Shown here: positions 25,040-40,008 of the stretch, piece by piece
Numbering within the stretch: the stretch's first letter is position 1
How the letters are laid out: every line of letters starts with the position of its first letter
Source of the DNA: Erysipelotrichaceae bacterium
Lineage (GTDB): Bacteria > Bacillota_I > Bacilli_A > Erysipelotrichales > Erysipelotrichaceae
DNA length: 64,000 nucleotides
NCBI GenBank assembly: GCA_013334325.1
Contig: JAAXXT010000006.1
Span: 1 to 64,000 of the forward strand
Direction: 5' to 3'
Program-made: the position numbers and the translations under genes
The notes under the pieces: model-generated
What the model saw: the letters and a program-made list of their open reading frames with translations, nothing else
What the model was told of the DNA's origin: nothing
Database searches by the model: none

Positions 25040-25379
25040 AGTAGTGTCCTTTCATAAATGAGATAAATGACTCAGTAATAGATTCAGATCTTTAATCTCT
25101 TTCGATTATCCTTTATTTCAATATTAACATAGTTTACTTTATCTGAAATTTTAACTCTCAAATCAAAATTTAGTTTCAATTTACTAGCCTAATAGTCTGT
25201 GTATTATGAGTGTATCTTGTCTTCAATTAATTGGTTTTTTATAATGGTACACTTCTCGTGCGCTTTCCAAAATAAGCATAAGAAAACCCTTATTAATAAG
25301 AGCTTAGGGATTTTTGATAAATCGTTTAGATAAGGATCAATAGAAAACAATTATTTTCGATGAAAACGTTACACTTATG
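25040..25379. other. intergenic stretch with degenerate promoter module
   Basis: No gene. It contains the terminator of the upstream gene (25273-25308), a CAGACT box preceded on the minus strand by ACACTCAT, and a single degenerate GTGTACC. It looks like an eroded copy of the island promoter module. Confidence 0.5.
25273..25308 (-). terminator. terminator of the 25380 gene
   Basis: Minus-strand stem CCCTAAGCTCTTATT and AATAAGGG followed by TTTTCTT, about 70 bases after the stop codon. Confidence 0.65.
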
Positions 25380-25385
25380 TTACAC
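25368..25385 (-). promoter_or_regulatory. GTGTAAC direct repeat, 11-bp period
   Basis: Two heptamers GTGTAAC at 25379-25385 and 25368-25374, overlapping the stop codon of the 176-residue gene. Same spacing as at 26677, 29155 and 30198. Confidence 0.6.
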
Positions 25386-25910
25386 CTCAATTTTATTCTT
25401 TATTGATATTTCAAACGTATAGCCATCAAGTTCTAATTCGTACTTACTATCAAAGATTCGATCCTCTTCACACGTGATTTGGAGTTTATTCTTCTCCCAA
25501 TCATGGAACTCTATATCGATCATTTTAATAGGGCTTGTTAAGACTACTTTATCCTTCAAACTTGATTCAACTTTTTCTATAGATAAGAAGCAGTTTAGAA
25601 TAAAATCATCAGAAGGCGATAATGTAATCGACTCATAATGATAACGAGAAACATCATACTCTATCAAATCACCACTGCAACAATCTACCAGGTATAAATA
25701 ATCTGAAGTTAAAACAAGAATTTTACTATGTTTCCTTGAAAGTTGGACCATCTTCGGTAGACCTCTAAATGATCCACACCATTCAACAAAATCATCTTCA
25801 AACCTAACCCAAGTCCAATATGGTGAATTCCAAACACTTTGAATGTCATAGATTCTCTCTTTGTATTGACCTGAATAGGGTTGATCAATTATTGTTGCAC
25901 CTGTTATCAT
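25380..25910 (-). CDS. unknown 176-residue soluble protein
   Basis: No signal peptide or membrane helix. It is rich in aromatic and acidic residues, with tryptophans at the N-terminus (SVWNSPYWTWVRFEDD). It resembles immunity or WD-like beta-strand proteins only vaguely. GAGG lies before the ATG. It is probably co-transcribed with the upstream gene at 25972 (61-base gap). The family is not recognised. Confidence 0.6.
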   Translation of the reverse strand: MITGATIIDQPYSGQYKERIYDIQSVWNSPYWTWVRFEDDFVEWCGSFRGLPKMVQLSRKHSKILVLTSDYLYLVDCCSGDLIEYDVSRYHYESITLSPSDDFILNCFLSIEKVESSLKDKVVLTSPIKMIDIEFHDWEKNKLQITCEEDRIFDSKYELELDGYTFEISIKNKIEV

Positions 25911-25971
25911 TTTTTACCTCAAAATTAAACTTCCTGTTTACCAATTTACCACGTTTATAGATTTAAACAAA

Positions 25972-26502
25972 TTAGTTAAGTTTTATCGTCTGTCCCCATT
26001 CAATAAACAGATCTTGAGAATCTTCCGCGTTTTTTGTCTCACATGCAAACTGAATGAGCCAAAACGCATCCGAACTTTTATGGACGGTCGCAAAGTAACT
26101 GAACTGCTTTCCGTTAACTGTCTTCTCGTATTTGAAGAAAGTTAAGTTGTCTTTTTCTTCAATGGCAGAATCTATCATGTTATTTTCGATCACAAGTTCC
26201 GCATATTCCTTCACAGAAATATCCGTGGATAAGCCGATAGATTCAAAAATAGTGAATTCTTCCTTTAAAACCGTGACAATATATTTCTGCGACTCATAGT
26301 AGGCGGTTTGAGAAGCAATTTCCTTTTCGTAAAAATCAGATGTCAAAGATATTGTCATGCCTGCTTTCGTAAATTCTTTTGTCTTGGCTTTCAATATAAA
26401 GAGATTGCTCAACCCACTACTGAGTACAAAAAAAACAGAAAAGCTCAAGACTGTCGATAATACAATCAATCCAATCTGCATAGGTCTACTAAGTTTTTTC
26501 AT
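25972..26502 (-). CDS. unknown membrane-anchored protein
   Basis: A 176-residue protein with one N-terminal helix (about 10-31) and an extracellular alpha/beta domain. The end pattern, in which a stretch of F-x-K-Y-E and FAT strands is followed by W-L-I-Q-F-A-C, recalls PsbP/MOG1-like or DUF1795-type surface domains. GAGGGG lies before the ATG. It is the first gene after the promoter module at 26600-26694. The function is unknown. Confidence 0.6.
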   Translation of the reverse strand: MKKLSRPMQIGLIVLSTVLSFSVFFVLSSGLSNLFILKAKTKEFTKAGMTISLTSDFYEKEIASQTAYYESQKYIVTVLKEEFTIFESIGLSTDISVKEYAELVIENNMIDSAIEEKDNLTFFKYEKTVNGKQFSYFATVHKSSDAFWLIQFACETKNAEDSQDLFIEWGQTIKLN

Positions 26503-26599
26503 AATTCTCCCCTCAAGATGAACTTGATTTTTATATAAGACTTAACTGGTCTGCGATGATTTTTATGGAACAAATTATTTGCCACCCAGTGTTATCTTC

Positions 26600-26694
26600 A
26601 TTATCCTCTTTACCCATTCCTAAGTCTACCTGTGATGCGTGTTTTTCGTTCTCTTTTAATAGTTTTCCATAAAATCGTTACACTTCTGTTACAC
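26600..26694 (-). promoter_or_regulatory. island promoter module, copy 1
   Basis: Minus strand, in order: GTGTAAC twice with 11-base period (26677-26694), a 48-base A-rich spacer ending in CGCATCACAGG, -35 TAGACT (26623-26628), 17 bases, -10 GATAAT (26600-26605). It drives the 26502 gene. Copies 2 and 3 have the same spacing. Confidence 0.7.
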
Positions 26695-26792
26695 CTGAGA
26701 ATTGGAAATATTATTGCTTGATAGTGATACATTACTGATTACAAAAACCATATAGCTTCGCATGACTCTCTTGGTGATCAGAGTTTATCTAA

Positions 26793-27389
26793 CTAGTAGA
26801 ATTTAAGTTGGGTAATTTTTTTACCTAAGCGGGTTGACCAAAGATTTTCCAATGAATCTGTCATATAGTAAACGGATGCAAGCATTTTTTGCTTTTCTCC
26901 GTACTTATAGAAGATGAGTCCTTTCTTTGCATAAAAGAGAAGCTCTTCCATTTCCGGTCTTACAAAATCCTCAAGTTGCGAAAGTCCCCATGGAGAATGA
27001 ATCCCGCTTTTCTCATTTTCACATTCAGAATCGATTTCTTTCAGGATCTCTTCCAAAAGTGTCACTGTTTCATCGATCGCATTCAGTTTCTTGAATCTTG
27101 GACCCACCTTTCGAATATGCCGTTCTATCTTTTTCATATCTGAGATTGAAATCTGTTTACCGCAGCTTGGGCATTTAAACTCAGTCCATATAAACTTAAC
27201 ATCTCCAAACATGTATCCTTCTCCTCCTGCGGAACTAAAATCGTATTCTTTTGCCTCTGGAGATTTGGAATTTACGATCTTGGAAACCTTAGTTTTGGAT
27301 AATAAAGAATGACAATCAGGGCAGTAATGTTTCTTAATGTTGACATAAAATGGACTTGTCCATGTTCTTTTGATGTGTTGGAATTTCAT
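26793..27389 (-). CDS. zinc-ribbon protein of unknown function
   Basis: A 198-residue soluble protein with two CxxC pairs (CPDC about 18-21, CPSC about 75-78), a likely zinc ribbon, followed by a helical C-terminal half. GGAG lies before the ATG. Repeat copy R1 is immediately upstream. No family recognised. It resembles small DNA- or RNA-binding accessory proteins only in the ribbon. Confidence 0.6.
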   Translation of the reverse strand: MKFQHIKRTWTSPFYVNIKKHYCPDCHSLLSKTKVSKIVNSKSPEAKEYDFSSAGGEGYMFGDVKFIWTEFKCPSCGKQISISDMKKIERHIRKVGPRFKKLNAIDETVTLLEEILKEIDSECENEKSGIHSPWGLSQLEDFVRPEMEELLFYAKKGLIFYKYGEKQKMLASVYYMTDSLENLWSTRLGKKITQLKFY

Positions 27390-27430
27390 AAGATCTCCAT
27401 TGTTTTCACTTTTTCAATTTATCCTAATAA

Positions 27431-27520
27431 CCACTGCAGTCTGACTCTCTTTACTCACCACGGTGAGTTTGCAAAGACCGTGGTCTGAGTGGACTTGGGA
27501 TCTCTTATAAACCCACTGCA
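27431..27520 (-). repeat. 3' island repeat, short copy R1
   Basis: A 90-base relative of R2 bounded by CCACTGCA at both ends. The core is ACCACGG and CCGTGGT around a 14-base loop. Compared with R2 the inner part is missing, exactly between two ACCGTGG copies, as expected from a deletion by short direct repeats. It follows the stop of the 27532 gene. Confidence 0.65.
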
Positions 27521-27531
27521 ACTAATTAAGC

Positions 27532-28308
27532 TTAGTGAAATGCCCAGCTGTTTGCCAATTTAAATTCTAGTAAGACCTGCCAAGGATCTTCAATCTGATT
27601 TTTACTAATTTCTATAATTCCCATATTTGGCATAATCATTTTATCTTTATCTAACATAATCAGAAAAGCACTTCCATATTCTCCATCATCTGAGTATTCT
27701 TGGCCAATGAAGAGCAATCGTCCTTCTTTATCTTGAGATAATAGCACTAAATCAGAGGAGTTCAAGTCACCAGGCAATATCTCAATCATTTCATTCAATT
27801 CACGAGTAGATAGTGGTCGGTTCTTATTGCGACGCAATTCCGTTGTAAACATATTACTTGGGTTCAGTGGCTCATTCCAATCATTTCGTTCTTTAAGATC
27901 ATTTATCATGGATTCGTTGAAATTAGCATTTATGATCTGATCACTCAATTCGTCTTCTTTTGTTGACCAAGCATAAATCTTTGAAATCATATTGACTCCG
28001 TCGTAATAGGATACTGTTTTTTCATCAGATGTTTGAACGATACCGACAGCTAATGTGTAATCGTCGTAGAGATGAGAAACACCAATGAAGCCATATAGGA
28101 TTCGTCCAAATGAATCAACTTCAATAATGATTGTCTTATCATGATAACCACCTTCCGCCCCTAGAATTGATTCTCTCGAGGCAACGAGCAGTGTAATATC
28201 ATTATCATAATATTTAGATCCATCAATTTCTAAGCAAGACGAAAGTAAAGCAAGCGCCAATCCTATAACTAGAATTTCTTCTATTTTGAGAAAAGCTTTT
28301 GTCTTCAC
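27532..28308 (-). CDS. unknown lipoprotein
   Basis: A 258-residue protein starting at GTG with AGGAGG upstream. An N-terminal hydrophobic stretch ends in lipobox LSSC (Cys about 25). The mature part is acidic and mixed alpha/beta. It has no clear -10/-35 of the shared island type. Repeat R1 follows it and R2 precedes it. Confidence 0.65.
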   Translation of the reverse strand: MKTKAFLKIEEILVIGLALALLSSCLEIDGSKYYDNDITLLVASRESILGAEGGYHDKTIIIEVDSFGRILYGFIGVSHLYDDYTLAVGIVQTSDEKTVSYYDGVNMISKIYAWSTKEDELSDQIINANFNESMINDLKERNDWNEPLNPSNMFTTELRRNKNRPLSTRELNEMIEILPGDLNSSDLVLLSQDKEGRLLFIGQEYSDDGEYGSAFLIMLDKDKMIMPNMGIIEISKNQIEDPWQVLLEFKLANSWAFH

Positions 28309-28386
28309 TTAATACCTCCTTGCCTATTGAGTCTACAATTGATTTATTTTATACTTTATCGAACCAAATAGGGTTCTCTACTAAAT

Positions 28387-28557
28387 CCACTGCGTTCCAA
28401 ATTCTTAGAACTCACCACGGTCTTCGTATTCACTCCATGGGAACATTCTCCACAATCTAGTACGAACGCTTAGGCACACGCATTCGTGTCCCACGGTGAG
28501 GTTGCCAAGATCGTAGTCTGAGTGAGTTGGTGATCTCTCATAAGCTTACTGCAGTCT
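28387..28557 (-). repeat. 3' island repeat, full copy R2, 5S-rRNA-like
   Basis: A 171-base repeat starting at the stop codon of the 28556 gene and bounded by CCACTGC and ACTGCA. On the minus strand a 112-base core is closed by a long stem (CTACGATCTT with AAGACCGTGG). It contains a GTGCCTAAGC block and the block GTTCCCATGGAGTGAATACG, in the order and spacing of 5S rRNA. A strongly diverged 5S-derived element is my inference. R3 shares most of it. Confidence 0.6.
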
Positions 28558-29041
28558 AGTTATATCCCCAGAAGGAGCGACCGATCTTTTTTATCGTGTC
28601 TACATCTATTGATTCATCAAATAGGAAATCTCGAACTTCCAAAGTCCCATTAACTCTGTGCCAAATCTCAAGCATATACCTTTCGAAACTACCCTCATCA
28701 TTTTGTATTTTAACAGTATGTATTTTTACACGATTATTCAGACTTAAGCCATTCATATATTCAATAGTGAATATCTGATTGTTGCTGATATCAGTGTAAT
28801 AATGTTCTCCATTCACAAACTTATATTCAAGTTCAACCATATATACTTGATTTAAATTCTCATCCTGTTTTCCATTATCTAGGATTATCCCTCTATCAGT
28901 TTTATTGATTATCCATTCGTCAGGTATACAAAATCGTCCAAATCCATTTATATTGAGTTGCTTTAAACCATTATCATAAAACACAATAAAACATAGAACT
29001 ATTGCTAAGATGATAGATAAAATGATAACTATTCTTTTCAT
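28556..29041 (-). CDS. unknown membrane-anchored protein
   Basis: A 161-residue protein. The start at 29041 is preferred over one 12 bases upstream because GGGAGAG then serves as ribosome site. One N-terminal helix (about 3-21) and a beta-rich extracellular domain. The size and layout resemble the 25972 gene, but the sequence differs. It is driven by promoter module copy 2 and followed by repeat R2. Confidence 0.6.
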   Translation of the reverse strand: MKRIVIILSIILAIVLCFIVFYDNGLKQLNINGFGRFCIPDEWIINKTDRGIILDNGKQDENLNQVYMVELEYKFVNGEHYYTDISNNQIFTIEYMNGLSLNNRVKIHTVKIQNDEGSFERYMLEIWHRVNGTLEVRDFLFDESIDVDTIKKIGRSFWGYN

Positions 29042-29076
29042 TGTCTCTCCCATCTTGAACCAAACTTACTGAACTC

Positions 29077-29172
29077 ATTATCCCTTTTATACATCCAATA
29101 GTCTACCTACTATGCGTATTTTTCTTTCTCTTTTATATCGTTTTCTATAAATCCGTTACACTTTTGTTACAT
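29077..29172 (-). promoter_or_regulatory. island promoter module, copy 2
   Basis: Minus strand: ATGTAAC and GTGTAAC with 11-base period (29155-29172), a 49-base A-rich spacer with CGCATAGTAGG, -35 TAGACT (29100-29105), 17 bases, -10 GATAAT (29077-29082). Confidence 0.7.
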
Positions 29173-29259
29173 TTCAGAGATTGAACTTTTGAACCTATGT
29201 TATTCTACTCAGAGGGCTCTATTAAGACCACTACAACCATATTTTTATCATAATTAAGT

Positions 29260-29637
29260 CTACGATTTTTTGCACATCACTTGTATATAAAGGATCGATA
29301 CAATCTGTATTACTCCAGTTGCGTTAAGCCAGAATTCTAACTTATTCTGTGTAAAATATATAAAAGTCATAAGAACAAGCATCGCAATATAAGCCAGATT
29401 CATAATTAGTAATACACAGTTAACTAAGAAGGGTAACCTTTCCCAATATTCTAAATATAGGGTTCGAGATAGAAAAGAACTTCCACTTTGCCTTTTTTTC
29501 TGTTTATTTAGGCTCTCTTTATGAAACCCAAGAAACCTATCTATAGGTTCTTCAATAAACATCGCATAAGTAATGATATAAATCAACAGAAAGACTAAAA
29601 TTATAAGTAGATAGCCTAATATTGTAAAAACATACAT
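29260..29637 (-). CDS. unknown three-helix membrane protein
   Basis: A 125-residue protein with one N-terminal helix (about 7-28), a basic loop with KKRQSGSS, and two C-terminal helices (about 70-92 and 102-118). GGAGG lies nine bases before the ATG. Repeat R3 is upstream. Family not recognised. Confidence 0.6.
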   Translation of the reverse strand: MYVFTILGYLLIILVFLLIYIITYAMFIEEPIDRFLGFHKESLNKQKKRQSGSSFLSRTLYLEYWERLPFLVNCVLLIMNLAYIAMLVLMTFIYFTQNKLEFWLNATGVIQIVSILYIQVMCKKS

Positions 29638-29692
29638 ATCAATGGACCTCCATTGTTTTGCGAAATTTAAGTATCATATAGTTCGTTATCAT

Positions 29693-29800
29693 AACGCACT
29701 ACGGTCTTCGTATTCGCTCCAGGTGGAGCATTCCCCACATTCTAGTATCAATGCTTAGGCACACCCAATCGTGTTCCACGGTGAGTTTGTTAAGACCATT
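29693..29800 (-). repeat. 3' island repeat, copy R3
   Basis: It shares with R2 the minus-strand blocks CTCACCGTGG, GTGTGCCTAAGC, GATACTAG, a GTGGGG/CTCCAC hairpin and GCGAATACGAAGACCGT. The outer arms are less conserved than in R2. It lies between the 29887 gene stop and the 29637 gene start. Confidence 0.6.
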
Positions 29801-29886
29801 TCAATATTAAAAGTTATCGAGTGCACTATTAATTCTCTTCTGTTTTGTCAGTTCGTTTGATGAATATCCTATATCTTGATTGGAAA

Positions 29887-30093
29887 CTATATTGTTTCCT
29901 TATTTCCTTTATAGGAATAAACAAGCCCAACGATAAACACTACTAAAAAGAACACAAACATGAACTCAAAACTAATATGTAGTGTAGACCTTGCACTACC
30001 ATAAGATCCCCCGATAGCAGATGCAATCAAGATACCGACTATACCAACCGTTCCGCTTAACACAAGTCCGATGCCTAATAATAGTTTTTTCAT
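29887..30093 (-). CDS. unknown small two-helix membrane protein
   Basis: A 68-residue protein from ATG 30093 (AGGTGG upstream) with two membrane helices separated by a GGSYGSARST loop. Driven by promoter module copy 3. It is the last gene of the island before the prophage end. Confidence 0.6.
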   Translation of the reverse strand: MKKLLLGIGLVLSGTVGIVGILIASAIGGSYGSARSTLHISFEFMFVFFLVVFIVGLVYSYKGNKETI

Positions 30094-30119
30094 TTTGCCC
30101 ACCTAAGTATGTTATTTTC

Positions 30120-30215
30120 ATTATGCCTTTTCATAGCCCGAAAGTCTACCCACTATGAGTGTTATTTTGTCTTCTTTTTAATCGTTTTTTAGAAAATGTT
30201 ACACTTTTGTTACAC
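30120..30215 (-). promoter_or_regulatory. island promoter module, copy 3
   Basis: Minus strand: GTGTAAC twice with 11-base period (30198-30215), a 49-base A-rich spacer ending ACACTCATAGTGGG, -35 TAGACT (30143-30148), 17 bases, -10 CATAAT (30120-30125). Confidence 0.7.
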
Positions 30216-30232
30216 CTGGCACTTTTGACCTG

Positions 30233-30257
30233 CAAAAAACCCTGATAGAATCAGGGC
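30233..30257 (-). terminator. former tRNA-Thr terminator
   Basis: Minus-strand stem CCCTGAT and ATCAGGG with loop TCT and TTTTTT. It lies 12 bases beyond the left attachment repeat and is probably the original terminator of the tRNA gene, displaced by the insertion. Confidence 0.75.
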
Positions 30258-30268
30258 CTAGAGTGAAA

Positions 30269-30285
30269 TGGTGCCGACAACAGGA
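30269..30285. other. attL: left attachment site, tRNA 3' end copy
   Basis: TGGTGCCGACAACAGGA, identical over 17 bases to the 3' end of the tRNA-Thr gene at 39932-39948. It marks the distal end of the inserted element. Confidence 0.85.
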
Positions 30286-30401
30286 TATGACACCGGCATA
30301 TTTTCGAGGAATAGTAGTGTTCAATAAACCTTATAAATAGGGCATTATCAACTGAAGTATTGAATAATAATCGTTTCGAAATAATTGGTTATTCAAAATT
30401 A

Positions 30402-30421
30402 TGTTAGCAAAACGTTAGCAA
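30402..30421. repeat. integrase arm-type repeats, left
   Basis: Two GTTAGCAA direct repeats with 11-base period, about 120 bases inside the left end. The same pair with the same period occurs at 39862-39879 inside the right end. Confidence 0.7.
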
Positions 30422-30448
30422 ACATTCGAGATCTCTATGATGATAGAA

Positions 30449-30670
30449 CTAGTCTCTTTTACCACTGTTGTTGGAATTTATTGCCACAATCAATTGATCA
30501 ATTTTGATCCATATTACAGCTATCAACGTAAATATACCGATAACAATCGAGAATAAATAACTGTTAATGAATGCCACATCAAACACATAGGTGGAAACGA
30601 ATCCCGGTAGAATATAAGCGATGGTAAATGCAGAAAGAACTATTAATATATATTTAATTGTGTTTTTCAT
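30449..30670 (-). CDS. unknown two-helix membrane protein (element cargo)
   Basis: A 73-residue protein with two helices (about 7-27 and 35-57). Its ATG at 30670 follows the upstream stop codon by one base, so translation is coupled to the secreted protein gene. Both lie inside the attachment repeats and are probably passenger genes of the element. Confidence 0.6.
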   Translation of the reverse strand: MKNTIKYILIVLSAFTIAYILPGFVSTYVFDVAFINSYLFSIVIGIFTLIAVIWIKIDQLIVAINSNNSGKRD

Positions 30671-30671
30671 T

Positions 30672-31796
30672 TTAGTGCCCATCTGTATGGTATGAAATCA
30701 GATTTACTCCATCGTACTCACTATTTTCTATACCAGGTGATAGTGAAACTCCTACCCCAGGATATTGTGAGCCAAGATTCCAGCTAAATGAGTAACCCAA
30801 GTTAATGACAGGATGCGCATGTTGATATACTGTAAATACATTGAATTCTTGGCTTTCATTGTAAGTTGACACCCTTGCCTTTGCACTAATATACATACTT
30901 AATGAAGTTACGGTTTTTCTTATGTTGGAAACCCAGTTGAATGTATCAATTGGTAAGTCCCAAGTATAATAGACACCAGAGTTTGGACTAAAGTATTGAT
31001 CTTGCTTATATTTTATGTATGGCCCCATAAGTTTAGTGGTTATAGACCCATTGTTATTAGTTTTCATAGTATACTGCATTCTTGAAGACATGTCCTCATC
31101 TCCTAATTGCCAGGCAGTCTTTCCATTGTTGGTTGCAATTGAGAACGCGTCTTTCAATCTTGCGTTCGGGATTATTAACCAAGTATAAGTCCCGGATAAA
31201 GTGTAATACCCTATCCCTCCCTGTATATTAGGGTCAAGATAATATGCAGTCGTTAGGATTTTCATATAACCATCCTTGGACCAATAATAATGGTATGACG
31301 TATTACTTGGAGATGTCGCGCTAGTGGTCATAACGGGTTCGCTAGAAAGCATTGCGTTGCCATTGAGTTCTTGATTCTCATACTGCTTAACTTGTAGGAT
31401 GCTTTCGAAACACTGTTTTTTGGATAAATAATCAATGCTTCCATCTTTTGATACTTTTACATACTGTTCAATTACCTTTATGTAAACAGACTCAGTCAAT
31501 ATTCTCGCCAATTCTTCGTAACCAATGAGTTGAATCTGTTCTGCTGAATATCCAAGTTCAGAAAATACATAATCAATAATCTCGTCATTTTCAACTTGAC
31601 CTACTCCATTTCTATCTAGATATGATTTAACACTTTTCAAATTTGCTTTTCTTAACAATGAATCGCCCGAAACTTCAGTAGAAATCGCAAGCAACGATTT
31701 GATAGATAAGGATAAATCAGTCGATGCTGATACTGAACTTATCTCTGAAAATAGTAAAACACAAAATATAACCAAAGTTAAAATAGTTCTTTTCAT
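30672..31796 (-). CDS. unknown secreted protein (element cargo)
   Basis: A 374-residue protein from ATG 31796, chosen because AAGGAAATG fits and the signal peptide then starts correctly (residues 1-25, ending SVSAS). The mature part is helical for about 110 residues, then beta-rich with many Tyr, Thr and Ser residues. The position at the end of the prophage, next to the attachment site and after the lysis genes, is typical of lysogenic-conversion genes. No family recognised. Confidence 0.6.
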   Translation of the reverse strand: MKRTILTLVIFCVLLFSEISSVSASTDLSLSIKSLLAISTEVSGDSLLRKANLKSVKSYLDRNGVGQVENDEIIDYVFSELGYSAEQIQLIGYEELARILTESVYIKVIEQYVKVSKDGSIDYLSKKQCFESILQVKQYENQELNGNAMLSSEPVMTTSATSPSNTSYHYYWSKDGYMKILTTAYYLDPNIQGGIGYYTLSGTYTWLIIPNARLKDAFSIATNNGKTAWQLGDEDMSSRMQYTMKTNNNGSITTKLMGPYIKYKQDQYFSPNSGVYYTWDLPIDTFNWVSNIRKTVTSLSMYISAKARVSTYNESQEFNVFTVYQHAHPVINLGYSFSWNLGSQYPGVGVSLSPGIENSEYDGVNLISYHTDGH

Positions 31797-32102
31797 TTCA
31801 TTTCCTTTCATAATGATCATAACTACCATAGAACCAATAACACAATTGTCGAAACTCGCCCCACCCCCTCATTTTAATTATTGTATTTAGGCTCGATAAT
31901 CTGATAATAGACTTAACGTTACTCAAAAGTCAAGGTAATCAAGACTATTCTTTATAATTCTTCTTGTGCTTACACACTATCTATTGCATCGAGTAACAAA
32001 CGCCTAAAAATATCACAAGTTTTCGAATTTTACATCTAATTCGTTCTGAATGCTAACATTCAAAAAGCCCCTAAGGATCCAGTGTTCCTTAGGGGCTTTT
32101 TG
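31797..32102. other. intergenic, terminator and weak promoter only
   Basis: About 300 bases without a gene. A weak minus-strand promoter (TCGACA, 16 bases, TATGGT) lies near 31825-31850, and the lysis-operon terminator is at 32059-32100. Confidence 0.4.
32059..32100 (-). terminator. terminator of the lysis cassette
   Basis: Very strong inverted repeat AAAAAGCCCCTAAGGA and TCCTTAGGGGCTTTTT with an eight-base loop, just after the XhlA-like gene. Confidence 0.95.
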
Positions 32103-32378
32103 TTAATTGGGTTCTTCTTCTTGATCTGATAAGTGCCCTGATTTCGCACAGTTCAGTTCCATTGATTGGAGCTTCTTTTCAGCCCTAGTCAATCTCTGAT
32201 CAAGCTTCGACACCAGCTTCTCGGTATTGTTGAGGTTGGTTGATAGTTCCTTGATCAGCACTTTAAGTTCATTGATTGCTTCGGTCAGATTTGAGAATGG
32301 CTTTGCGATTAGAGCGAACAGTGTTCCAATCGATATAAGCGCAATGGCAACGACCCCAATACCTTCAGCTGGCGACAT
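32103..32378 (-). CDS. XhlA-like holin-associated protein
   Basis: A 91-residue protein with one N-terminal helix (about 6-24) followed by a long coiled coil (ELKVLIKELSTNLNNTEK through RAEKKL). This matches the layout of hemolysin XhlA-type proteins in phage lysis cassettes. AAAGGAG lies before the ATG and overlaps the end of the endolysin gene. Confidence 0.65.
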   Translation of the reverse strand: MSPAEGIGVVAIALISIGTLFALIAKPFSNLTEAINELKVLIKELSTNLNNTEKLVSKLDQRLTRAEKKLQSMELNCAKSGHLSDQEEEPN

Positions 32379-32380
32379 AC

Positions 32381-33159
32381 CTATTTCTCCTTTGGGACAA
32401 AGCTGAGGTTGATCAGCATCCCGTCCTGCTCCAGCGCTACTGTGAGCGGTTTGTAGATGATCTTATCAATCGTAATCGTAGTAGGTTCAATGAACTTGAC
32501 CGTATTCCATTTCGAATTAATCCCACAGAACACATGTGATCCATCATCAAGCAAGATCTCTGCCCATTCATATCCACCTAAAAGTTGAGACTTACCAATG
32601 TATGGGTAAGATCTCTTCTCGAGATACTTGATTCTTGAACCGTTGGGCTTATCGCGGTAGAAAAGTTCAGGCACAATAACTGTAAGCATTGGCAATGGTG
32701 GTCTATTCATTCTGATCTCCTCATAAGGCGTGATTGCCTTGGTTCCTAATAGATAGGGCGTCGGATCAACGAATACTCCTTTGATCCTAATTCCTAGATG
32801 CATGTGAGCCCCTGTGACTGTTCCAGTATGTCCTGCTGTAGCGATCGTAGGGCCACGTTCAACGATTTGATTAACTTTGACACAGATACTACCAGGCGCT
32901 AAATGTTTGTACAATGGCTCTGTATAGTCTTCATGTTGAAAACGATGTAGTTACCTTCGACACTGTTATAACCCACATCAGTAACTTTGCCTCTTTCAAT
33001 AGCCATTGCCTTAACAACTGGCACCATATCGATACCGGTATGCCAAGTCACGTGAGTTGTACCAACCATGAAGTCAACCTTGACAAACGGACAAATTACG
33101 TAAACACTTTTAAGCCCGATTAGAACTCTCTTAATAAAGTTCGTATAAGCTTGGCTCAT
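32381..33159 (-). pseudogene. M23 endolysin, broken by a frameshift
   Basis: The two halves of one peptidase lie in different frames. The N-terminal part (33159 to about 32940) has the first zinc motif WHTGIDM. The C-terminal part has GAHMHLGIR and an SH3-like tail. Near 32935-32943 one missing base shifts the frame; restoring it joins NYIVFN to EDYTEPLYKHL. An intact protein would be about 258 residues and cut cell-wall cross-bridges. The start overlaps the holin stop (ATGA). If the shift is real, the prophage cannot lyse normally; an assembly error is the alternative. Confidence 0.8.
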
Positions 33160-33584
33160 CAGCCCAATACTTCACTTTCGTCCACTTCATCAACAACTGG
33201 TTCAGCTCCGAATGGTGTGTATGTATCCGACTTGTTAAACATCTCATTTAGCTTGTCATCGATGGTCTGCATAAAGGCAGGTGTTGGGATGCCAAATAAG
33301 AAGATCATGTTCTGCAGAGTACTGTTGCCATAATAGGCAATAACCAAAGTCATTAGCAATTTAAATGTTGGTTCAGCAAATGGTAATCCGAAGATCTGTG
33401 CAATTCTTAAGTAGTAGAACATTAAGCCCCCAATTAAAGCCGTAAATGCCAACAGAACGATATTCTTTAATCCACTTAAGGCAAGTGACCACTTGAACTC
33501 ATTTCGTTTCAGCGCCCCCGCAATACCGTTAGCATAATCTAATAGAACTATACACAATGCGATGATCACGAAATGCGCAATCAT
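33159..33584 (-). CDS. phage holin (toxin secretion/phage lysis type)
   Basis: A 141-residue protein with about four hydrophobic segments (1-20, 31-60, 72-88, 89-105). The DYANGIAGALKRNEFKWSLALSGLKN stretch is typical of phage_holin_4 proteins, followed by an acidic tail. It would form the pore that releases the endolysin. Directly followed by the endolysin gene. Confidence 0.85.
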   Translation of the reverse strand: MIAHFVIIALCIVLLDYANGIAGALKRNEFKWSLALSGLKNIVLLAFTALIGGLMFYYLRIAQIFGLPFAEPTFKLLMTLVIAYYGNSTLQNMIFLFGIPTPAFMQTIDDKLNEMFNKSDTYTPFGAEPVVDEVDESEVLG

Positions 33585-33628
33585 AAATTCAAGAAATGCG
33601 TCATTTAGGTTTACCCTCTTTCTGTGTA

Positions 33629-33653
33629 AAATAAAAAGAGCCTAAGCTCTTTA
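33629..33653 (-). terminator. terminator after the tail gene
   Basis: Minus-strand stem AAAGAGC and GCTCTTT with loop TTAG, then TATTTT. It lies six bases after the stop that the unshifted tail frame would use (33659-33661), but inside the frame read after the shift. Confidence 0.75.
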
Positions 33654-33658
33654 GATTC

Positions 33659-34787
33659 TTATGCTGTTTTCTTCCACATATAAACCACGATGTAAGATGC
33701 AAATTATTGTGGGATCCACCACCTCCTGAATTAGCGATACTAACCGTATGTTGATGTCCTCCCTTAGAATCTGTTAAATAAACATTATTCCCGCTTACCC
33801 AAGATATTGGTCTGTTAAAACTTGATCCACTCGCGACACTTGGACTTGGTACTGCCCCAATTAAATAATGAGTATGCGCACCTTGCGTGTCTTCCGAAGC
33901 GGTATGATTATGGGCTGGTATTTCGGTCGTCGCAAGAGTGTGCGTTTTAGCCCCACTTGTTTCCTCAACTGAATTAAACTCTGTCTGAGAAGCATCTAAA
34001 CCCACTAAAGTCTTACCAGCGCCAAATGTCACCCAAGTGTCAAATCCAAATAACGTCGCTGGATTTGTTGAAACCACAGACATATAAATTGCACACAAAG
34101 AATTCCCCAATTTTACCCCTCTAGAATTGATGTCTCCATCTGCATTTATTGATATACCATCGGCAACATCAGCAACATCGATAGTTCCCGACCCATCATA
34201 GGTCTTACCAAACGACGCATAACGTTTACCCAAGATCATACTCACATCGCCACTTGGGAGAAATGTCATTCCTTCAGCATAGTCATCTGTAACTTCTAAA
34301 GTAGAGGCATCGTTATCTAGATCATAGAAGGCATCGAACACCCTTAAACGGATGTCATAGACCTCAGCAGCTAAGAATCCAGCTTTGCTGAAGTCGTTAA
34401 CTCGCCGAAGGTTAGACCTCCTGGAGCAATAGCAGAATTCTTGCTAAAGGAACCAGTACTCTTGATTCGGTAATCGATTTTATACTTGATCCAATTCTTC
34501 TCAGTAGTACCATCCAAGGCCTTTACTGCTATAGCCGTTCCTTTGATAACACATCGGAGATAGGTTCCAAATACCGGATCAAACACTCCACTTACAGTAG
34601 ATCTGTAGACTTCAAATTTATCGACTTTTGGATAAGTATAGGCGCGTACGGTGATCGGTGCTGAGGTAAACACGGCTGTTCTTCCTCGGCTGTCTATGAT
34701 TGTAATAGTTGCTGTTAAATTTCCCGATGTATTGAGAATATCAGTAACAACTGGACTGGTAGACTGAGTCTTATCAGTCCCGGCAAA
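33659..34787 (-). pseudogene. phage tail fibre / collar protein remnant, two frameshifts
   Basis: A C-terminal remnant of a minor structural protein. The first part (34787-34371) reads through Ig-like strands. Near 34400 the frame shifts, and the original continues as NDFSKAGFLAAEVYDIRLRV into the next open part (34341 onward). That part ends in a collar domain with TTEIPAHNHT and GGGGSHNNL. Near 33700 a second missing base diverts the usual end SYIVVYMWKKTA into another frame. Upstream an in-frame TAG at 34788-34790 cuts it off. No capsid, portal or terminase genes remain. Confidence 0.75.
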
Positions 34788-34823
34788 CTAAACACGTAAG
34801 GTCACTCCTTTCGCATAAGTTAT

Positions 34824-34934
34824 CTTAATTAATTTTCAATATATTATTTAGTTTTCTTATGTCAAAACCAGAATTATAGTTTTCTTAATTAAATCTTATG
34901 TTTTGCTTGAATACAATTAAGAAATGTTTATAAT
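34824..34934. promoter_or_regulatory. repressor operators and promoter
   Basis: Three copies of a CTTAATTAA-type site: 34824-34832, 34884-34892, and an inverted copy TTCTTAATT at 34915-34923. The third sits inside the spacer of the promoter TTGAAT (34907-34912), 16 bases, TATAAT (34929-34934) that reads into the repressor gene. This suggests autoregulation. Confidence 0.65.
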
Positions 34935-34952
34935 TAGCCTTGAGGTAACATC

Positions 34953-35597
34953 GTGAAAAAATTTGCTGAACGACTTCAAGTAGCTCTCTCTATAAGAAAA
35001 ATAAAAGCTGCAGAGCTCGCAACTCGAACTGGATTAAGTCAATCATTGATTTCACAATACTTAAATGGGAAATTTGATGCTAAAAATGACAAAATCTGTG
35101 CCATTGCGAGCGCACTGAATGTTAGCGAATCTTGGTTAGCCGGGTTCACTAATGAACTTGATCCTTGGGAAGACGACAAAAGCATGGTTCCTTTAAAAGT
35201 GATGACCAATAAGATCACTGCGTATGGTCGGATCCCAGTCGGCATCCCCTTTGAAGCAATCCAGGATCTCTTGGAAGAAGTTGAGATACCAAGTTGGCTC
35301 GCAGAGAAAAAAGGCCTATTCGGCCTTAAGGTAGTTGGAGACAGTATGAACAAAGTTCTTCCTGACGGATCCATCGCGGTTCTTCAGAAGACAGATACCT
35401 TGAATAATGGGGAGATCGGTGCGATCCTGGTGAACGGGTTCGATGCCACACTGAAGAAGTTCTATCAGCTGACGGACAGCATCGTCTTAGAACCGCTGAG
35501 CTATAATCCAGATAATAAGACTCTGATCTATACTGACGAAACTGAGATCCGACCAATAGGTAAACTAGTTTGGTTCTGTGCAGCACAAGGGTGGTAA
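34953..35597 (+). CDS. phage CI/LexA-type repressor with S24 peptidase
   Basis: A 214-residue repressor starting at GTG with GAGGTAAC upstream. HTH_3 domain at residues 5-62 (AAELATRTGLSQSLISQYL). S24 domain with an AYGRIPVG linker where self-cleavage is expected, Ser131 in VVGDSM and Lys168. It would keep the prophage silent and be inactivated by RecA after DNA damage. The cleavage pair reads Ala-Tyr-Gly rather than Ala-Gly. Operators lie directly upstream. Confidence 0.9.
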   Translation: MKKFAERLQVALSIRKIKAAELATRTGLSQSLISQYLNGKFDAKNDKICAIASALNVSESWLAGFTNELDPWEDDKSMVPLKVMTNKITAYGRIPVGIPFEAIQDLLEEVEIPSWLAEKKGLFGLKVVGDSMNKVLPDGSIAVLQKTDTLNNGEIGAILVNGFDATLKKFYQLTDSIVLEPLSYNPDNKTLIYTDETEIRPIGKLVWFCAAQGW

Positions 35598-35616
35598 GAA
35601 AGAGGGGGATATTGGT

Positions 35617-36579
35617 ATGAAGAAATTCTTTAAATGGTATGACAGAAATTTTGGATGGTTATTTAACTGGTTCATCAAACATCCTGTAGTATTCATCTTT
35701 CTAGTGACTCTCGTTACAATTAATCTGATCACCAGGGGTGAATATGTTTGGAGCACGATCTACATTGTTATGTTGTTCTTTATTGTGTCGTTATTCATTT
35801 TTATGCAGATCGATGCGTTAAAGAAAAACCACTTACTGCGCAGAGTTGCGTTGTACTTGATGGTGTTCATTGGGACCAGTTATGGTCTCGTCAGGTTTCT
35901 CAAAATGATTCCAGAAGATTATCTAGTTGTTGGAGTTGATGATTGGCTCGGATTCGCCGGTGGCCTCTTCGGAGGATTCATAGCGATCTATGGTATTTGG
36001 ATCACTCTTGAAGAAACCAGGAAGCAGAATGCTGAGACATTAGCCTTACAATCCATTCCTCTTATTACAATCGATGTTCCGGAGTTTTTCTATGAAACAG
36101 ACGGGGTAGTATACACAACACTTGATGAAATCGATCCTTTTACTGAGAGCGGGTTTTTCCATGTGAGAGTTCCCTTCTCTCTGAATAATAAGTCAGCCCA
36201 TATTGCAAGAAACTTCAGATTCATAAAAGCTGAATTTGTATCCCGAAGTATTTTGAGTGGCATTGAAGATCTTGGCACTGGTAAAGAAGCCGCATTCAAG
36301 AATATCCTCAATGAGGTAAATGAGCAGCTTGAGAAGATTTCGGCTCTTCCTGGCGGATATAGCGACACGCTATTCATTAATGTGCAACTTGAGTTGCTAA
36401 AACATGATCGGATCACTTTCGAATTTATTCTCGAATATTCAGACTATTTAGGTAAACTCAGTCATCAAATTGAAAACAAAACAAATGTTGTAGTAACCAG
36501 AAAGAGAACCAAAGAGGAAGAACGTTGGAAAAACACCTTGAGCAATTCGGTAACTACAAAGAATAAGTTTTTAAAATAG
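35617..36579 (+). CDS. unknown membrane protein in prophage
   Basis: A 320-residue protein from ATG 35617 (GAGGGGG upstream; a start inside the repressor gene is unlikely). It has four N-terminal helices (about 12-32, 40-62, 72-90, 105-125) and a 190-residue cytoplasmic domain beginning EETRKQNAETLALQS. The layout of membrane anchor plus soluble domain suits superinfection exclusion or abortive-infection proteins, but no family is recognised. Confidence 0.6.
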   Translation: MKKFFKWYDRNFGWLFNWFIKHPVVFIFLVTLVTINLITRGEYVWSTIYIVMLFFIVSLFIFMQIDALKKNHLLRRVALYLMVFIGTSYGLVRFLKMIPEDYLVVGVDDWLGFAGGLFGGFIAIYGIWITLEETRKQNAETLALQSIPLITIDVPEFFYETDGVVYTTLDEIDPFTESGFFHVRVPFSLNNKSAHIARNFRFIKAEFVSRSILSGIEDLGTGKEAAFKNILNEVNEQLEKISALPGGYSDTLFINVQLELLKHDRITFEFILEYSDYLGKLSHQIENKTNVVVTRKRTKEEERWKNTLSNSVTTKNKFLK

Positions 36580-36640
36580 CGATTAGGATTTCCAAATCAA
36601 ACATAAATAATCCTATGCGATTATTGAAAGGGGCTAAATA

Positions 36641-37477
36641 ATGTTTTTCTTTGATTTTACAGATCGGGGTAGTGAATTTCCTTTGTTCGAAGATATTCGT
36701 AATGTAACAGAAGATGGTAAAGAATTTTGGTTTGCACGAGATTTGATGGGGGTGCTTGAATACTCGAAATGGGACAATTTTGTCAACGTTATCGAAAAGT
36801 CGAAAGAGGCTTGCGAGAACAGTGGTTTTGACTCAACTGATCATTTTGCCGACGTCAGCAAAACGATACAGATGCCCAAAGGAGCTGAGAAAGAAATCCC
36901 GGATATCATTCTAACTAGATATGCTTGCTATTTGATAGTTCAGAATGGAGACTCAAGAAAGAAAGTCATTGCTCTTGGACAGACTTACTTTGCTGTTCAA
37001 ACTCGGAAACAAGAGATTGAAGATATAAGTAAACTAAGTGAAGATCAGCGACGTCTGCAACTAAGAGTTAGCATCAAGGATTTCAATAAGAAACTATATA
37101 AAGCTGCTACTGACTCAGGCGTAGTTCACTATGGAAAGTTCACTAATTTTGGATACAAAGGGTTATACGGTGAGGAAACTGAAAAAGATATCCATCGAAG
37201 AAAAAATCTTAAAGAGAACGAAAAGATCCTTGATCACATGGGCGCTACTGAATTGGCTGCCAACTTCTTTAGGATAACTCAGACTGAAGAAAAGTTGAAG
37301 AATGACAACATCACATCAGAGGAAGAGGCAAATAAAACACATTACCGAATAGGTGTTAAGATCCGCAAAACGATGGTTGAAATTAGTGGAACACTTCCAG
37401 AAAATCTGCCAACTCCTGAGTCAAGTATAAAAGAGATTGAAAAGAAGAGTAAATCAGATACGAAACATTTAAAGTGA
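36641..37477 (+). CDS. dinD: DinD-like DNA-damage-inducible protein (BRO-N type)
   Basis: A 278-residue protein matching the pattern of DinD. The N-terminal BRO-like domain includes WFARDLMGVLEYSKWDNF (about 29-46) and ILTRYACYLIVQNGD. The ending is NKTHYRIGVKIRKTMVEI with a lysine-rich tail. DinD proteins are SOS-induced and modulate RecA filaments. An AAGGGG site precedes the ATG. In a prophage controlled by a LexA-like repressor this fits SOS-linked regulation. Confidence 0.8.
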   Translation: MFFFDFTDRGSEFPLFEDIRNVTEDGKEFWFARDLMGVLEYSKWDNFVNVIEKSKEACENSGFDSTDHFADVSKTIQMPKGAEKEIPDIILTRYACYLIVQNGDSRKKVIALGQTYFAVQTRKQEIEDISKLSEDQRRLQLRVSIKDFNKKLYKAATDSGVVHYGKFTNFGYKGLYGEETEKDIHRRKNLKENEKILDHMGATELAANFFRITQTEEKLKNDNITSEEEANKTHYRIGVKIRKTMVEISGTLPENLPTPESSIKEIEKKSKSDTKHLK

Positions 37478-37511
37478 TCAAAATACTGATTAATATGTGT
37501 CGGAGGAACTA

Positions 37512-38003
37512 ATGGACATGTCTAAAACACAAAAAAATAATGAAGTGAAATTCATTGAAAGATATTCTCCTGAAGACTATATGAATGCACGGCTTGACCA
37601 GCAAATTAAATGGTATGACCAAAAATCAATTGGATTTAAGAACTTACATTTCTGGTTAGTTTTTGGTTCTATCATTTTATCGTCCCTAGGTTCGTTCATC
37701 GCGATCTTGGGTTTCTTGCTTCTCGAATTCACTCTTCTTATTCAGATTGTTTCATCTGTTCTAGGTATCATCGTAGCTCTCTGTCTTGCTCTGGATAAAT
37801 TTAATACCTATCAAGAATTACATTTACAATATCGCTCAACATGTGAGAAATTGAACCAGGAAAAACTCCTTTATCTGACGAGGGCAGGCGATTATACATC
37901 TAGTGATGATAACTCGAATTTCAGACTTCTTGTTCAGCGATGTGAAAGTGTTATGGCTACTGAAACAGGAAACTGGGCTCAACTAAAAGAAAAGAAGACT
38001 TAA
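37512..38003 (+). CDS. SLATT/DUF4231 two-helix membrane protein
   Basis: A 163-residue protein from ATG 37512 (GGAGG five bases upstream). Residues 27-40 (ARLDQQIKWYDQKS), two helices (about 47-70 and 75-96) and the C-terminal YRSTCEKLNQEKLLYL with a final NWAQ follow the DUF4231 family. SLATT-type 2-TM proteins are predicted pore-forming effectors of nucleotide-signal immune systems. It sits two genes before a ThsB-like TIR protein. An effector role in membrane disruption is inferred from the family. Confidence 0.8.
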   Translation: MDMSKTQKNNEVKFIERYSPEDYMNARLDQQIKWYDQKSIGFKNLHFWLVFGSIILSSLGSFIAILGFLLLEFTLLIQIVSSVLGIIVALCLALDKFNTYQELHLQYRSTCEKLNQEKLLYLTRAGDYTSSDDNSNFRLLVQRCESVMATETGNWAQLKEKKT

Positions 38004-38197
38004 TCCTTCTTCCCTAATACTACATAAGTTTTGTCGAATATATCTGGTTTACACGGATACTTCTCACCAGCCACACCAGTAATGATCCAATCGCCCTTAT
38101 GAGCAATCATATCCCCTTCAAGGGTATGAATGATCTGATCGCGATCAGATATCTCTGCATCTACGATTATTGCCTTCTTTTGGACTCTATATTTCAT
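38000..38197 (-). CDS. small phage protein of unknown function
   Basis: A 65-residue protein with the sequence pattern of a common small phage protein: an MKYR start, HTLEGDMIAHKGDWIITG, then KYPCKPDIFDKTY. It is shorter than usual, lacking the middle part. It is antisense to the rest of the right arm and overlaps the SLATT gene end by four bases, so it probably marks an insertion or rearrangement between the SLATT and TIR genes. Confidence 0.65.
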   Translation of the reverse strand: MKYRVQKKAIIVDAEISDRDQIIHTLEGDMIAHKGDWIITGVAGEKYPCKPDIFDKTYVVLGKKD

Positions 38198-38241
38198 TGC
38201 TCACCATCAAACGAATTATATCAAAGAAAGGGGGTAAAAGC

Positions 38242-38634
38242 ATGATTACAGTTCGATTGTTCATCAGTCATTCATGGTCATATAAAGAAGATTACGAAAA
38301 GATTATTAAGAATTTAAGCGACTACATTAACATCATTGACTATTCGATCTCTTCAGACGAACCAAAGGATGCTGATTCGGTTAGAGAGCTTAAGAGAATG
38401 ATTACAAATAATCTTAATCAATGCCAATGTTTTGTCGTTTTGGCAGCAATGTATGCATATCATAGCAAATGGATTGAATATGAAGTTAATGAAGCCATAA
38501 GACTTGGAAAACCGATAGTAGCTGTTAAACCATGGGGCCAAGAACGAGTCCCACAGTTTATTCAGGATAACGCTGACAAGATTGTTGGTTGGAATTACGA
38601 AACAATGGCTAACGCCATAAAAGATTTGATTTAA
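38242..38634 (+). CDS. ThsB-like TIR-domain protein (DUF1863)
   Basis: A 130-residue single-domain protein from ATG 38242 (GGGGG upstream). It starts with FISHSWSYKEDY (7-18) and has VVLAAMYAYHSKWIEYEVNEA (65-85). The highly typical VKPWGQERVPQ (95-105) and IVGWN follow. This is the MTH538 TIR-like family of Thoeris ThsB. ThsB proteins detect phage and make a cyclic ADP-ribose-type signal from NAD. No ThsA gene is nearby; the only candidate effector is the SLATT protein. Confidence 0.85.
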   Translation: MITVRLFISHSWSYKEDYEKIIKNLSDYINIIDYSISSDEPKDADSVRELKRMITNNLNQCQCFVVLAAMYAYHSKWIEYEVNEAIRLGKPIVAVKPWGQERVPQFIQDNADKIVGWNYETMANAIKDLI

Positions 38635-38652
38635 ATTATCAACAATGGTGAG

Positions 38653-38714
38653 AAAAACGTCCTGGCTGGCACCAGGACGCAAGTACAACTTATCCTATCA
38701 CGGGTTTTGTTGTA
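38653..38714 (-). ncRNA. candidate small RNA beside the integrase gene
   Basis: On the minus strand an extended -10 TGGTATAAT (TATAAT at 38720-38725) is followed by hairpin GTACAAC / GTTGTAC (38709-38715 with 38683-38689) and a strong terminator, CGTCCTGG and CCAGGACG with TTTTT (38653-38679). The predicted RNA is about 60 nt with two stems and no reading frame. No other minus-strand gene needs this terminator. Its promoter overlaps the region in front of the integrase ribosome site. Confidence 0.5.
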
Positions 38715-38748
38715 CCTCCATTATACCAAAACAAAGGAGGTTGTGTTT

Positions 38749-39840
38749 ATGATCGGAAGACGGAATGGCGTTTTATTTTTCTCAGTCCGATACAAGGACT
38801 CGCTGGGAAACACTAAAGCCAAGTTCATGCAGAATAAGGAATGGAAGACCAAGCGCGAAGCTAAAGAAGCGATGAATCTGTTCTTGCTCTCAGTCAAAAC
38901 GAATTACGACAAGATCACTGTTGATCAGCTCTTTATGCTATATCGCGAACATACCAAAGAGAAGATCAAGCAACACAGCATCGATACCCAGGACAACTAT
39001 TACTTCAATCACATCAAACCGTACCTGGGTGATCTGATCATACGCAACATCAGCCCCAGAGATATTCTCAAGTGGCAGAATTACCTTGTGGGCAAGAAGT
39101 TCAGCAATCGATACTCCTCATCGATCCAGCACTTCTTCAGAACGCTGATCAACTTCGGTTTGAAGTACGAGTACATCAATCGTAATCCGTTCAGGGGTGA
39201 CTTCATAGTCAACCACGAAGAGAAGAAGGAAGAGATGGAGATCTGGACGATCGATGATTTCAATCGGTTCATCCCCTACGCTCCTACCTTGACATATGAA
39301 TCATTCTTCACTGTGCTTTATTGGTCTGGTCTGCGCAAAGGCGAAGCTGCGGCTCTTCGTGTAGAAGACATCGATCTCAGGAATTCGCAGATCAACGTCT
39401 CGAAGACCTACGACTTCACGAACAAGTTTTCTACACTGCATAAGACCAGAAACTCGATCCGGACTGTTGCCATTACCGACAATGTTAAAAGCCTCCTGGA
39501 AGAGCTCTGCAAGGCGCACAAAGCATCTTATGAGTACTCAGATGATCGTTATGTCTTCGGATATGACGCGCCTCTTGCGGCAACCACGATCGAACGAGTC
39601 AAACACATAATGTGCCTGGTATCCGGAGTAAAAGAGATCCGGGTCCACGATCTTCGGCACTCTCATGTTTCGCTCTTGGTCTCACTCGGTTTCAGCCCTA
39701 TCGAAATCGCTAAGCGATTGGGTCATACTGTCGACATGGTAAACAATGTTTGCTCTCATTTATTCAAAGATTCCCAGCAAAGAATGGTCGATCGTGTGAA
39801 CGACAAAGCGAACAGTTCAGCCCCGATTATCAAGGCATAA
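38749..39840 (+). CDS. int: tyrosine recombinase integrase, nucleophile replaced
   Basis: A 363-residue phage integrase from ATG 38749 (AAGGAGG). It has an N-terminal AP2-like arm-binding domain (1-50), a core-binding domain (53-155) and a catalytic domain. Catalytic residues visible are R196 (SGLRKGEA), K232, H300-x-x-R303 and H326 in RLGH. The nucleophile position in the VYSHLF motif reads VCSHLF: Cys335, codon TGC 39751-39753, one base from TAC. The gene is GC-richer than its host surroundings. It lies 90 bases from the tRNA attachment site. As written, it should not catalyse strand exchange. Confidence 0.85.
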   Translation: MIGRRNGVLFFSVRYKDSLGNTKAKFMQNKEWKTKREAKEAMNLFLLSVKTNYDKITVDQLFMLYREHTKEKIKQHSIDTQDNYYFNHIKPYLGDLIIRNISPRDILKWQNYLVGKKFSNRYSSSIQHFFRTLINFGLKYEYINRNPFRGDFIVNHEEKKEEMEIWTIDDFNRFIPYAPTLTYESFFTVLYWSGLRKGEAAALRVEDIDLRNSQINVSKTYDFTNKFSTLHKTRNSIRTVAITDNVKSLLEELCKAHKASYEYSDDRYVFGYDAPLAATTIERVKHIMCLVSGVKEIRVHDLRHSHVSLLVSLGFSPIEIAKRLGHTVDMVNNVCSHLFKDSQQRMVDRVNDKANSSAPIIKA

Positions 39841-39861
39841 AAATACATAATTCGAAAAAAC

Positions 39862-39879
39862 GTTAGCAATTTGTTAGCA
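39862..39879. repeat. integrase arm-type repeats, right
   Basis: GTTAGCA at 39862-39868 and 39873-39879, 11-base period, about 55 bases inside the right end. They match the pair at 30402-30421. Confidence 0.7.
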
Positions 39880-39898
39880 TTTCAAAATCGACATACAA

Positions 39899-39926
39899 AA
39901 ACCCCTTATTCTATAAGGGGTTTATC
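39899..39926 (-). terminator. element-borne terminator for tRNA-Thr
   Basis: Stem ACCCCTTAT and ATAAGGGGT with flanking A and T runs, directly after the tRNA 3' end. It replaces the original terminator that now lies at 30233-30257. Confidence 0.85.
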
Positions 39927-39931
39927 TTTAC

Positions 39932-39948
39932 TGGTGCCGACAACAGGA
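39932..39948. other. attR: right attachment site inside tRNA-Thr
   Basis: TGGTGCCGACAACAGGA, the 3' end of the tRNA gene including CCA, repeated at 30269-30285. The insertion keeps the tRNA intact. Confidence 0.85.
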
Positions 39949-40008
39949 CTTGAACCCGCAACCTACTGATTACGATTCAGTTGCTCTACCAGTTGAGCTA
40001 TGTCGGCA
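39932..40008 (-). tRNA. tRNA-Thr (CGT)
   Basis: A 77-nt cloverleaf with encoded CCA. Acceptor TGCCGAC/GTCGGCA, anticodon stem ACTGA/TCAGT, loop ATCGTAA with anticodon CGT. It is the integration target of the element. A hairpin TACGGAG/CTCCGTA lies just upstream at 40012-40031. Confidence 0.95.

Follow-up and report, generated by a model that had tools for sequence, protein, structure and literature searches.

A prophage remnant inserted at a tRNA-Thr gene encodes a tyrosine integrase in which the codon for the nucleophilic tyrosine reads cysteine, and a disabling missense change in this integrase is very probably the best explanation of the data. The remnant lies in a stretch of 64,000 nucleotides, referred to here as the window. 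The change in the sequence, its uniqueness among relatives, the boundaries of the element, the empty sites in other genomes, the missing phage genes, and the open right-hand genes were all established directly. The element was compared with G098, a related contig of 37.7 kb from IMG/VR. Its features in the window are as follows.

30269–30285: attL core, TGGTGCCGACAACAGGA; second copy of the tRNA-Thr 3' end, at the boundary away from the tRNA gene; 17-bp exact direct repeat of 39932–39948
30403–30420, + strand: paired GTTAGCA, 11 bp apart (30403/30414), candidate arm-type sites of the left end; the pair matches the right end
30672–31829, − strand: protein of 385 aa with an apparent signal peptide, of unknown family, at the left end of the remnant (from the ORF list)
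32381–33159, − strand: M23-type lysin in two overlapping frames, 32381–32914 and 32899–33159; presumed frameshift
33159–33584, − strand: holin, open (Pfam Phage_holin_4_1); 50% identical to the G098 homologue
33601–34802, − strand: tail protein remnant, short of ~405 N-terminal residues against the G098 homologue (840 aa)
34802–34953: deletion-junction region, where G098 has ~29 kb of phage genes (G098 alignment; PHROG calls on the missing genes)
34953–35597, + strand: HTH-S24 repressor, open (Pfam, PHROG)
35578–36579, + strand: membrane protein of 333 aa, open; 67% identical to the G098 homologue
36641–37477, + strand: BRO-N protein, open (Pfam Bro-N, phrog_8036, PDC-S13)
37497–38003, + strand: SLATT/DUF4231 two-helix membrane protein, open (Pfam); dN/dS 0.092 against G098
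38242–38634, + strand: ThsB-like TIR protein, open (Pfam ThsB_TIR); protein identical to that of G098
38749–39840, + strand: tyrosine integrase, open, 363 aa (Pfam Phage_integrase and Phage_int_SAM_3, phrog_1)
39751–39753, + strand: codon 335 of the integrase, the nucleophile position, TGC (Cys) (codon reading and alignment of relatives)
39862–39879, + strand: paired GTTAGCA, 11 bp apart (39862/39873), candidate arm-type sites of the right end
39899–39923: terminator-like bidirectional hairpin between the integrase and the tRNA (from the sequence)
39932–39948: attR core within the tRNA-Thr 3' end, 17-bp repeat
39932–40007, − strand: tRNA-Thr(CGT), target of the integration and still intact (ARAGORN)

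The integrase and its nucleophile position

Family membership of the integrase was clear from the Phage_integrase profile (PF00589), which it matched with an E of 4.8e-17 and 62.7 bits (cut-off 27.1), and from a PHROG search of 38749–39840, in which it matched the phrog_1 integrases with an E of 1.5e-57. An earlier note, made from the letters of the window, had claimed that the nucleophilic Tyr is changed to Cys by a single TAC to TGC substitution and that the remaining catalytic residues are intact. When the codons were read, counting the ATG at 38749 as codon 1, R196 (CGC), K232 (AAG), H300 (CAC), R303 (CGG), and H326 (CAT) were all found to be kept. The tyrosine expected of an active tyrosine recombinase was absent, and Cys335 stood in its place within the open frame, which confirms the residues named in the note.

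Tyrosine occupied the position aligned to 335 in all of the 183 distinct relatives, which were fetched regardless of that codon (29 from related genomes, 1 plus 73 from IMG/VR, and 80 from GTDB genomes; these were tallied per collection, and a few sequences, L032 included, may count in two). In the genome contigs, relatives were found by an alignment-based search; a single-protein query there gave none. Because position 335 is invariant among all relatives, the departure there is not explained by chance. The closest relative is L032, the integrase of G098, which is 94% identical and has TAC at codon 335; an ancestral TAC, and hence the single-base change of the note, is the likely reading of this comparison.

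Alignment with close integrases, which the note had proposed as a check, revealed no relative that uses an alternative Tyr, and by homology residue 335 is the nucleophile position. That another conserved Tyr serves as nucleophile was rejected, as Tyr aligns at 335 throughout the relatives and the integrase is without Tyr after residue 272. Hence, no nearby residue is able to replace Tyr335.

We also looked for other integrases with Cys at this position. When 2.9 million viral contigs of IMG/VR were scanned for the exact motif LGH-x7-NT-Tyr-SHL, 86 contigs were returned; the Cys version of the motif returned 0. A local-sequence search of IMG/VR found no Cys-bearing integrase, G098 being the sole match, and a DNA search of the family, which covered 272 other genomes, likewise found none. 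On these three results, the idea that Cys integrases form a natural clade was rejected.

The structural model of the integrase had a mean pLDDT of 87, but the blocks spanning residues 331–360 reached just 64–69, and confidence in the helix that holds residue 335 is moderate. The best PDB match to the model was Tn1549 Int (TM 0.64, 18% identity in the structural match); among the structural relatives, this integrase was crystallised with its nucleophile replaced (Y379F). It may be noted that codon 231 (39439–39441) reads His for a near-invariant Pro adjoining the catalytic K232 (Pro in 171 of 225 relatives), a second active-site change in the same copy.

The remnant and its boundaries

The final 17 bases of the tRNA-Thr 3' end, read on the + strand, recur as an exact second copy at 30269–30285. 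The note had suggested that an empty tRNA site be sought, and an uninterrupted tRNA-Thr site was present in three related genomes (G002, G001, and G014). In the congener G002, the DNA left of 30269 continues directly into tRNA-Thr. The core repeats, together with the unbroken site in relatives, define the insertion as 30269–39931 (9,663 bp), an att-bounded, phage-derived element of the kind seen in grounded prophages. The GTTAGCA pairs at the two ends are putative arm-type integrase sites, a reading by likeness to the lambda- and Tn916-type integrases.

G098 has the same layout as the remnant at both ends, with tail and holin genes on the left and the repressor, membrane protein, BRO, SLATT, TIR, and integrase genes on the right. 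Its middle part encodes terminase, portal, minor and major head proteins, tape measure, helicases, helicase-primase, and DNA polymerase, as called by PHROG. In the remnant, the tail gene is followed by the repressor gene within ~150 bp; therefore, the remnant is short of ~29 kb that G098 has, and terminase, portal, major head, tape measure, and replication genes are without counterpart, again as in grounded prophages. The repressors of the two elements have a common C-terminal domain and different N-terminal parts, which makes G098 a relative and not the parent. Known phage records gave no match at the DNA level.

When the tail remnant was searched by tblastn with the G098 protein, residues 406–544 were found in one frame and residues 546–632 in another, the frame changing at ~34384. 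For the lysin, the C-terminal half alone matched Pfam Peptidase_M23 (positions 49–96) and PHROG endolysins. The other damage of which the note had spoken thus comprises the ~29 kb missing against G098, a tail gene that is both truncated and frameshifted, and the frameshift in the lysin. Its statement that the cargo genes are open was likewise borne out, as the right-hand genes (TIR, SLATT, BRO, and membrane protein) have no stops.

The protein of 385 aa at the left end (30672–31829) had no match in PHROG or PADLOC and none above the cut-off in Pfam, and no ThsA was seen beside the ThsB-like TIR gene (38242–38634). Between the SLATT and TIR genes lies an ORF of 65 aa (38000–38197, − strand), antiparallel to its neighbours, which is kept in G098 with a dN/dS of 0.074; this ratio makes it probably a genuine small gene.

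Selection on the integrase and the age of the change

Comparison of the integrase with L032 gave a dN of 0.027 and a dS of 0.497, i.e., a dN/dS of 0.055, indicating strong purifying selection. Long-term pseudogene decay of the integrase was rejected on this ratio. The unconstrained share of the total integrase path was at most ~8%; if 10% of the path had been unconstrained, that part alone would predict ~43 nonsynonymous changes, while ~23 were observed. Hence, the integrase was under selection through nearly all of the divergence from G098, and a loss of function, if real, would be recent on that scale. Judged from this comparison, the Cys335 change is probably late relative to the G098 divergence. 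The open gene and the strong overall constraint weigh against a dead integrase, as a functional enzyme would also show them.

On the lineage of the remnant, three near-invariant sites had changed (E170D, P231H, and Y335C), against 0 on the G098 copy. As three such changes are not unusual for distant relatives (median 2), little weight was given to the excess.

An error of sequencing, assembly, or strain consensus, with TAC in most cells, is an unlikely source of the TGC. The genome is in draft form (51 contigs), and the rest of the integrase, with its low dN/dS and otherwise intact codon context, is like that of a working enzyme. However, one substitution error at exactly codon 335 is improbable a priori, independent lesions occur elsewhere in the element (tail gene and lysin), and P231H and E170D likewise affect near-invariant sites in the same lineage.

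The low dN/dS and the intact frame of 363 aa could also mean that the dead integrase has been retained for its DNA binding, acting through occupancy of att/arm sites, repression of a neighbouring gene, or poisoning of the tetramers of incoming related integrases. We consider this quite unlikely. Paired candidate arm sites do persist at both ends; in MrpR of SPbeta, a tyrosine-recombinase fold has become a repressor (PMC10516654), and in the work on Cre, the Y324C protein was expected to act as a dominant inhibitor (PMC4168980). Yet selection before the change accounts for the low dN/dS, and no Cys-integrase lineage that would indicate long-term retention was found among the relatives, by local sequence in IMG/VR, or in the 272 genomes. 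Very unlikely, in our estimate, is a domesticated dominant-negative integrase whose att/arm binding shields tRNA-Thr and the TIR/SLATT/BRO cargo from excision or from integration of related phages.

The TIR gene differed from that of G098 by 0 nonsynonymous and 6 synonymous changes (dS 0.085), whereas the dS of the flanking genes was ~0.5. The TIR gene is thus far closer to G098 than its flanks are, which points to a recent exchange of that segment. The exchanged gene is defence-like.

Expected consequences and known systems

Tyrosine recombinases use their Tyr to attack the scissile phosphate and to hold the DNA (PMC4499138). When the corresponding residue of Cre was changed to Cys (Y324C; TAT to TGT, one A to G), reporter recombination fell at the no-Cre background, and rescue occurred solely via rare transcription errors (PMC4168980). 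As Cre Y324C is recombination-defective, we infer that catalysis is lost in the Cys335 integrase as well, and that the remnant is not self-excising.

The disabled integrase would fit the following course of events. A phage related to G098 would have integrated by recombination of its attP with the 17-bp tRNA-Thr 3' end, and the prophage would afterwards have lost head, tail, and replication genes amounting to ~29 kb. In its integrase, Cys would have replaced the nucleophilic Tyr. The Cys335 protein probably still folds, and presumably binds DNA; it would be unable to form the 3'-phosphotyrosine link, so that self-excision of the remnant would fail.

That Cys335 is still functional, acting itself as a thiol nucleophile or else activating water and turning the enzyme into a nicking endonuclease, appears extremely unlikely. 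Vaccinia topoisomerase IB reportedly becomes a site-specific endonuclease upon replacement of its Tyr by Glu, Cys, or His (Wittschieben 1998, cited in PMC4499138). Against this, recombination by cre-Y324C was not above background (PMC4168980), Cys occurs in no relative, and hydrolysis would leave excision incomplete.

The earlier note had described the element as locked in place. The analogy with Cre Y324C supports this in cis only, since the att sites appear intact: with the core repeats and candidate arm sites preserved, they might still be used in trans by an active integrase of a related kind. No second such integrase able to do so was found in the same genome, where the search returned one weak match of 30%. 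Mixed tetramers with a related active integrase could be poisoned by the Cys335 protein. Occasional transcription errors of the G to A type, comparable to those in the Cre assay, could in principle also give traces of integrase activity.

The remnant is a newly described example of an already known class, the grounded or cryptic prophages (E. coli Qin, Rac, e14, and others; PMC6379469), although its loss of self-excision is argued from Cre. It resembles them in being an att-bounded remnant with structural genes lost, some cargo open, and an integrase presumably disabled. Mutation of the recombinase has been proposed as a route to grounding, with the mutated intQ of Qin cited (PMC6379469). In contrast to the grounded E. 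coli prophages, the integrase lesion of the remnant is a single missense change at the nucleophile in a gene that is otherwise open and constrained. Cre Y324C shares with it the Tyr to Cys replacement by one A to G (TAC to TGC being the likely change in the remnant), but was engineered for a transcription-error assay in a simple recombinase without arm sites, whereas the change in the remnant is natural (PMC4168980).

Like the Tn1549/Tn916- and lambda-type integrases, the protein has a two-domain catalytic core and an N-terminal arm-binding region, and the element carries paired direct repeats at its ends. Its identity to Tn1549 Int is, however, just 18%, and the element is a phage remnant and not a conjugative transposon. 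MrpR of the Bacillus phage SPbeta is likewise a tyrosine-recombinase fold without recombinase activity, which for the integrase of the remnant is presumed; MrpR is a proven repressor that keeps its Tyr and has lost most other catalytic residues, whereas the integrase keeps all but the Tyr (PMC10516654).

The remnant thus offers a well-documented natural case of an integrase apparently disabled at its nucleophile, with gene and att sites intact. It is a natural counterpart to Cre Y324C, and the Tyr-bearing partner in G098, 94% identical, is at hand for comparison. The case bears on the fixation of defence-like cargo of temperate phages in the host. Current understanding of prophage decay is left unchanged; the remnant illustrates its ordinary course cleanly.

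Outside the element, 25180–30268 holds small same-strand ORFs of unknown function, interleaved with two families of intergenic repeats, one of ~100 bp (26598, 29075, and 30118) and one of ~150 bp (27458, 28402, and 29686). Members of both families are found again on contig C11, where they form another cluster (G000:C11:50002-59780), and related repeats adjoin tRNA-Thr in the congener G002. The array looks like a cassette-type or serial-duplication array. In G002, a related integrase (L008) is split into open frames of 276 and 86 aa (G002:C32:5478-6254 and 6266-6478) and is possibly another disabled integrase.
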